Source: Nitrospira sp.
GTDB lineage: Bacteria; Nitrospirota; Nitrospiria; Nitrospirales; Nitrospiraceae
DNA length: 64,000 bases
Assembly: GCA_029194535.1 (NCBI GenBank)
Contig: JARFXR010000002.1
Coordinates: 372,001 to 436,000, forward strand
Direction: 5' to 3'
The position numbers were made by a program, and so were the translations under genes. A model generated the notes under the pieces. That model did no database searches. It was not told the DNA's origin and was given only the letters and a program-made list of their open reading frames with translations. Of this stretch, positions 12,547 to 12,616 are shown in pieces; the stretch's first letter is position 1; the number at the start of each line of letters is the position of its first letter.

Positions 12547-12575
12547 TTGACAAGCTCGGATGCCGTCGATACTAT
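12547..12575 (+). promoter_or_regulatory. sigma-70-type promoter of the gap-pgk-tpiA-secG cluster
   Basis: A perfect -35 hexamer TTGACA (12547-12552) is followed after exactly 17 bases by TACTAT (12570-12575). Transcription would start near 12582, about 54 bases upstream of the gap ATG and only a few bases before a hairpin with a T-run. This is the best promoter match I found in the window. Confidence 0.7.
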
Positions 12576-12585
12576 CGGGCTCCAT

Positions 12586-12616
12586 CAGGCCGGTACTGTT
12601 CACCGGCCTGTTTTTT
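12586..12616 (+). terminator. intrinsic-terminator-like hairpin in the gap 5' leader
   Basis: CAGGCCGGT (12586-12594) and ACCGGCCTG (12602-12610) form a perfect 9-bp GC-rich stem with a 7-base loop. It is followed directly by six T (12611-12616). The only upstream gene, mutS2, runs the other way, so this does not end a preceding gene. It lies within the gap leader, 20 bases before the ATG, which suggests attenuation or a protective 5' stem-loop. Confidence 0.7.

Follow-up and report, generated by a model that had tools for sequence, protein, structure and literature searches.

A conserved terminator-like hairpin at the gap promoter of Nitrospira and its relatives, a candidate attenuator

Organization of the gap promoter and leader

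The window analyzed here is a stretch of 64,000 nucleotides from a Nitrospira genome (G000:C2:372001-436000, where G000 is the window's own genome). On its plus strand, to which all leader coordinates below refer, lies gap, encoding glyceraldehyde-3-phosphate dehydrogenase (12636..13649), the first gene of a gap-pgk-tpiA-secG series; the open reading frame was listed from an in-frame TTG at 12537, and the ATG is at 12636. The promoter, as read from the sequence, is of the sigma-70 type and near consensus, with a -35 box TTGACA (12547..12552) and a -10 box TACTAT (12570..12575) separated by a 17-nt spacer. The likely transcription start is 12584 (range 12582-12584), as predicted from its spacing to the -10 box and from a pyrimidine-purine step; A12584, which sits at this step, seems as plausible a start as 12582, and among 153 related leaders the first such step is most often found 6-9 nt past the -10 box.

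A terminator-like hairpin follows at 12586..12610, identified from the sequence, from folding and from covariation (see below). Its left arm, CAGGCCGGT (12586-12594), and its right arm, ACCGGCCTG (12602-12610), form all nine of nine possible pairs, seven of them G-C, around a 7-nt loop (12595-12601), with a predicted energy of -16.4 kcal/mol. The stem starts 10 nt past the -10 box, that is, within a few bases of the predicted start. A tract of six T (12611..12616) abuts the stem and ends 3 nt upstream of GAAGGA (12620..12625), the probable ribosome binding site of gap. An earlier note on this DNA had read TTGACA-17-TACTAT, a perfect 9-bp stem from 12586 and six T, all of which we find in the sequence; it had also placed the structure 20 bases before the ATG, and the distance from the T tract to the ATG is in fact 19 nt.

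Two other assignments of this hairpin were rejected. It does not belong to the end of a gene upstream, because the neighboring gene in the window (mutS2, named by reading) points away from it; a loose motif of the mutS2 N-terminus was likewise read as divergent in 20 of 30 loci among relatives, the other 10 giving no clear call. Nor does the leader encode a leader peptide, there being no ATG or GTG between 12582 and the gap ATG at 12636; the in-frame TTG at 12618 merely extends gap.

Two motifs flank or overlap these elements. An inverted repeat, TACC-ACTTT-GGTA, at 12530-12542 ends 4 nt 5' of the -35 box. Matched loosely, it is found in 5/7 g1, 15/25 g17, 1/1 g5 and 2/68 g15 upstream regions (genera are numbered g1, g2 and so on) but not in the other genera tested; it is present also in upstream regions that have no gap hairpin, and is possibly a regulator site. 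A -10-like hexamer, TACTGT, lies at 12594-12599 at the start of the hairpin loop; G001 and G004 have TACTTT, and several leaders of g17 have TANNNT forms. The hexamer is not conserved in the other genera, and could perhaps be a sigma-dependent early pause site.

The hairpin in a single genome

Folded alone, the 61-nt leader stands out only a little from shuffled sequences (z = -1.6; 16 of 200 fold as well), and in a simple scan of 9 kb terminator-like sites were no more frequent than expected (7 against 7.6). Because the window sequence by itself thus gives no proof, we compared it with its relatives. On a larger scale, 850 kb of the own genome (about 21% of it) contained 166 terminator-like sites, 60 of them with stems of at least 8 pairs; one Markov-shuffled copy of the same 850 kb contained 112 and 31, respectively. 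By terminator score (using a formula after d'Aubenton Carafa) the gap hairpin ranks sixth of these 166 sites. A promoter-like site precedes the stem by 3-25 nt in three of the 166: the gap hairpin, a palindrome (at 702635) and a hairpin that is weak (at 874).

Distribution of the hairpin among relatives

The family to which the window belongs, presumably that of Nitrospira because a Nitrospira sp. has a gap 88% identical, is represented by 175 genomes in 22 genera, and gap was identified in 169 of the 175. Leaders were taken from 153 genomes in 19 genera with the promoter pattern TTGAC[AT], 16-19 nt, TANNNT before gap, so that the conserved letters of the -35 box are in part imposed by the pattern; TACTAT is the -10 box in 125 of the 153 leaders, its T, A and last T being likewise imposed. 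The spacer is 17 nt long in 90 leaders and 18 nt in 63. A promoter was lacking in two of 146 extracted upstream regions, those of G152 (a contig end, recovered from another contig) and G078 (where the match began inside gap); G078 is among the 22 family genomes outside the leader set. A PGK signature lies downstream of gap in all 30 loci checked.

We scored a hairpin as strong if it had a perfect stem of -8 kcal/mol or better that started at most 16 nt past the -10 box. Such a hairpin was found in 51 of the 153 leaders, representing 15 of the 19 genera, with the stem starting 6-14 nt past the -10 box; a looser criterion raised the count to 63 of 153. By the strict criterion it is missing from 102 leaders: all 27 of g14, 62 of 68 in g15, 8 of 29 in g17, 2 of 7 in g1, and the sole members of g5, g9 and g16, with G005 and G006 of the window's own genus among those that lack it. 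The stem is followed within 3 nt by at least four T in 41 of the 51 strong hairpins, and this combination, present in 41 of 153 real leaders, appeared in none of 765 dinucleotide-shuffled leaders, 16 of which had a strong stem alone. These presence and absence counts ignore kinship; judged by this comparison of sequences, the combination of hairpin and T tract in the gap leader is not due to chance. Three of the six positive g15 leaders (G062, G095 and G098) may carry unrelated stems, because no T tract follows them and the sequences of G095 and G098 differ.

Presence of the hairpin is associated with promoter spacing in g15: by the looser criterion it is found in 15 of 17 leaders with a 17-nt spacer and in 1 of 51 with an 18-nt spacer. 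The pattern would fit a joint tuning of brake and promoter strength, but a single ancestral event could also explain it, as kinship is ignored in these counts.

A covariance model built from 37 hairpin-bearing leaders recognized a single strong site, at 61 bits, in the own genome and no second copy there (next best E value 6.5). Across the class, it matched in 53 of 269 genomes and 14 of 56 genera, every one within the window's family, in a search whose stricter filters may lose weak matches. All 54 matches map to gap: coordinates place 44 of them there, and for the other 10, at loci in nine genomes, gap was read downstream; G172 accounts for two of them, on two contigs, both at gap.

Covariation of the stem

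Two alignments were used to evaluate the stem. A1 contains 44 distinct leaders, after identical leaders and the largely hairpin-lacking genera g5, g9, g14, g15 and g16 were left out; within the remaining genera, rows were not chosen by pairing. A2 contains 37 hairpin-bearing leaders and was obtained from A1 by dropping G005, G006, G141, G142, G161 and two g18 rows. In A1, 77.7% of cells pair and eight of the nine pairs have two-sided changes; 34 cells are two-sided, compared with 14.9 +- 3.2 in shuffles, and sliding the partner by 1-3 columns leaves 1 to 12. In A2, 92.5% of cells pair and 25 are two-sided, compared with 8.5 +- 2.5 in shuffles. The number of further pair types had no clear excess, being reached by 153 of 500 shuffles for A1 and 86 of 500 for A2. 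All of these counts, like those of absences above, are taken over leaders irrespective of kinship or of place on a family tree.

The exchanges can be seen in individual lineages: T-A pairs stand in deep genera where g1 and g17 have G-C, three g17 members carry GACCGG/CCGGTC, and G139 carries CCAA/TTGG. These two-sided changes in several lineages indicate, as far as sequence comparison can, selection for pairing. The sequence and length of the loop are not conserved among relatives. The CCGG core of the stem is nearly invariant among the hairpin-bearing leaders of A2, a degree of constancy that, on the sequence evidence, is not required by pairing alone. Consensus folding with RNAalifold predicted seven pairs for the 37 sequences of A2 and no structure for the 44 of A1, probably because A1 includes broken members and misaligned g18 rows. 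The earlier note had asked for conservation of the stem in relatives to be checked, and the stem is indeed kept with compensatory changes, though not universally in the family.

The T tract follows the stem

Runs of at least five T occur in 40 of 51 leaders with a strong hairpin and in 20 of 102 without one. In 47 leaders a run of at least three T follows the stem, and in 45 of these it lies 0-3 nt from it; the distance from the T run to the ATG varies from 14 to 39 nt (37-39 nt in g2, g18 and g21). By these sequence comparisons the position of the T tract is tied to the stem and not to the start codon. Several g17 leaders (G134, G139, G141, G142, G147 and G148) keep the T run with a weak or broken stem.

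The leader of the window thus has a G+C-rich stem-loop, kept with compensatory changes among relatives, and a U tract directly 3' of the stem (displaced or interrupted in much of g17), two marks of an intrinsic terminator. As in an attenuator, this structure lies between the promoter and the first gene on the same strand, in a position and with a promoter common to the relatives. By the same formula as above, the terminator score is below zero in 24 of the 51 strong gap hairpins (17 in g17, 4 in g15, 2 in g1 and 1 in g18, including G001 and G004 of the window's genus), so termination may be weak in these leaders and the stem may there serve stability.

Alternative explanations

Among the options that the earlier note had raised (an attenuator, a source of short RNA, a 5' stabilizer), the coupling of T tract and stem favors termination over a stabilizer made of a stem only, because a terminator needs the tract at that place and neither a stabilizer nor an enhancer of the ribosome binding site does; the many scores below zero weigh in the other direction. 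A 5'-terminal stabilizer would hinder pyrophosphate removal and 5'-end-dependent RNase, prolonging the life of the operon mRNA, with negligible termination. That the stem begins so close to the likely start, only a few bases away, fits this reading, as do the weak terminator scores and the description, in a review, of Bacillus subtilis RppH as requiring at least two unpaired 5' bases and preferring three or more (PMC3997798). Since it leaves the fixed distance of the T tract without a purpose, we regard this reading as fairly unlikely, though it deserves to be taken seriously. The T tract might instead aid ribosome binding, as a U-rich S1 site upstream of the Shine-Dalgarno sequence that the stem keeps single-stranded. 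The 3-nt distance between the tract and GAAGGA in the window, together with the T runs that lack a good stem in some g17 leaders, would suit such a role; a tract that keeps its distance to the stem and not to the ATG, from which it is 37-39 nt away in g2, g18 and g21, would not, and we think the idea improbable.

The inverted repeat with its nearly invariant CCGG core could also serve, at the level of DNA, as a palindromic binding site for a repressor or another regulator just past the start site. In 59 leaders the two CCGG halves stand anywhere from 3 to 12 bases apart, a variable spacing for which we rejected an operator palindrome; moreover, the outer pairs change together and the T tract is left unexplained, making a protein-bound palindrome very improbable. 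Finally, the hairpin might be a fading relic, kept by descent in some lineages with no present function, as its absence from all 27 g14 leaders, from 62 of 68 in g15 and, by the strict criterion, from G005 and G006 might suggest. Two-sided changes in several lineages, and the selection for pairing that they indicate, speak against a relic, which we likewise hold to be hardly probable.

A minimal promoter-proximal attenuator

Many related genera have kept the hairpin while its letters changed, so that a genuine control element is probable; its likeliest role is that of a brake on the genes of the operon. We consider it moderately probable, from the sequence comparisons above, that the hairpin is a minimal promoter-proximal intrinsic terminator, acting as an attenuator; the start site, the occurrence of termination, its extent and its control are all inferred. 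RNA polymerase would start at about 12582-12584, and the nascent RNA would fold almost at once, with the hairpin at about +3 to +27 and the T tract at about +28 to +33. A share of the polymerases would release an RNA of about 33 nt at the U tract, and the rest would continue into gap-pgk-tpiA-secG, so that attenuation would lower the output of the near-consensus promoter. The readthrough mRNA would retain the 5' hairpin, which may also slow its decay as a side effect. Against the attenuator reading count the terminator scores below zero, the 102 of 153 leaders that lack a strong hairpin, the g17 leaders in which a T run accompanies a weak or broken stem, and the near-invariance of the CCGG core.

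With the stem so near the start, neither a 5' sensor nor an upstream antiterminator would fit, and the readthrough share would therefore probably depend on the stem and U tract themselves and on globally acting influences (Nus factors, nucleotide pools and polymerase state). Only 6-14 nt separate the -10 box from the stem among the hairpin-bearing leaders, too few for a sensor domain or antiterminator fold; no alternative fold was seen in single-leader folding or in consensus folding of A2, and in the leader no Rfam family reached its gathering score, a single sub-threshold match to an unrelated viral stem-loop being taken as chance. With no upstream antiterminator sequence, no leader peptide and no conserved loop, the leader is unlikely to be a riboswitch or a T-box, or to have its loop read by a protein. 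A bolder form of the attenuator would have termination at about +33, with the polymerase barely off the promoter, set the output of gap-pgk-tpiA-secG by polymerase state or nucleotide pools with no sensor at all, and would allow the hairpin RNA of about 33 nt to act in trans; we regard this form as distinctly unlikely.

Other RNA elements in the own genome

Six leaders on the minus strand of C2, outside the window (near 127992, 132054, 132190, 137500, 141149 and 174957; loci L267, L268 and L269), carry GGAC-A..G..-GTCC hexaloop hairpins, the 3' side of which runs into a terminator. Hexaloop hairpins that merge into a terminator are a feature of ANTAR-regulated leaders. The one ANTAR-domain match in the own genome (C2:176162-176317, minus strand) lies close to the 174957 leader, and by sequence these six leaders and the ANTAR protein likely form an ANTAR attenuation regulon. 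A terminator of similar sequence precedes a NAD-synthetase-like open reading frame near C2 160301, and an Rfam match to 5_ureB_sRNA (73.2 bits; L269 4031-4327, equal to C2:164031-164327) falls in the same region. Within the window, Rfam places a TPP riboswitch at 44802-44913 on the plus strand (64.9 bits).

Comparison with known systems

The nearest known layout is probably that of the Escherichia coli ampC attenuator, a terminator in a short leader between promoter and gene that lowers expression with no ligand-binding domain. It differs in gene and sequence, and in that its hairpin doubles as the end of the frd operon lying upstream, while the gene upstream of gap is divergent. In the ompA leader, a 5'-terminal mRNA stabilizer, a stem stands a few bases from the 5' end, as it would in the gap leader with the predicted start; the gap leader differs from stabilizers of this type in adding a T tract at a nearly fixed distance. 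A survey that covered the 5' terminators of 302 bacterial genomes describes many putative attenuators, with stems averaging 7.0 bp and -16.5 kcal/mol (PMC2965389), to be compared with 9 bp and -16.4 kcal/mol in the window; gapA, glycolysis and glyceraldehyde do not occur in its main text. The same source describes the greA and rnk leaders, in which promoter-proximal 5' terminators give rise to short RNAs (GraL in the case of greA), one of them reported to act in trans; the gap leader resembles these in its promoter-proximal terminator but differs in that each of them has a clear antiterminator structure (PMC2965389), for which there is no upstream sequence here. The gap element is thus of a kind already known, the promoter-proximal 5' terminator, and the sensor or antiterminator typical of most attenuators was sought in it and not found. 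A literature search, with most subscription papers outside its reach, returned no report of a gap attenuator in Nitrospira and no start-site map or leader study of the genus.

If the attenuator reading is true, it would give a concrete, conserved control element on the central carbon metabolism of Nitrospira and its kin. With a stem that starts practically at the first base, the gap leader would be a simple natural system in which to study how readthrough is determined at a sensor-less attenuator, and the presence and absence of the hairpin in close relatives would provide ready controls.
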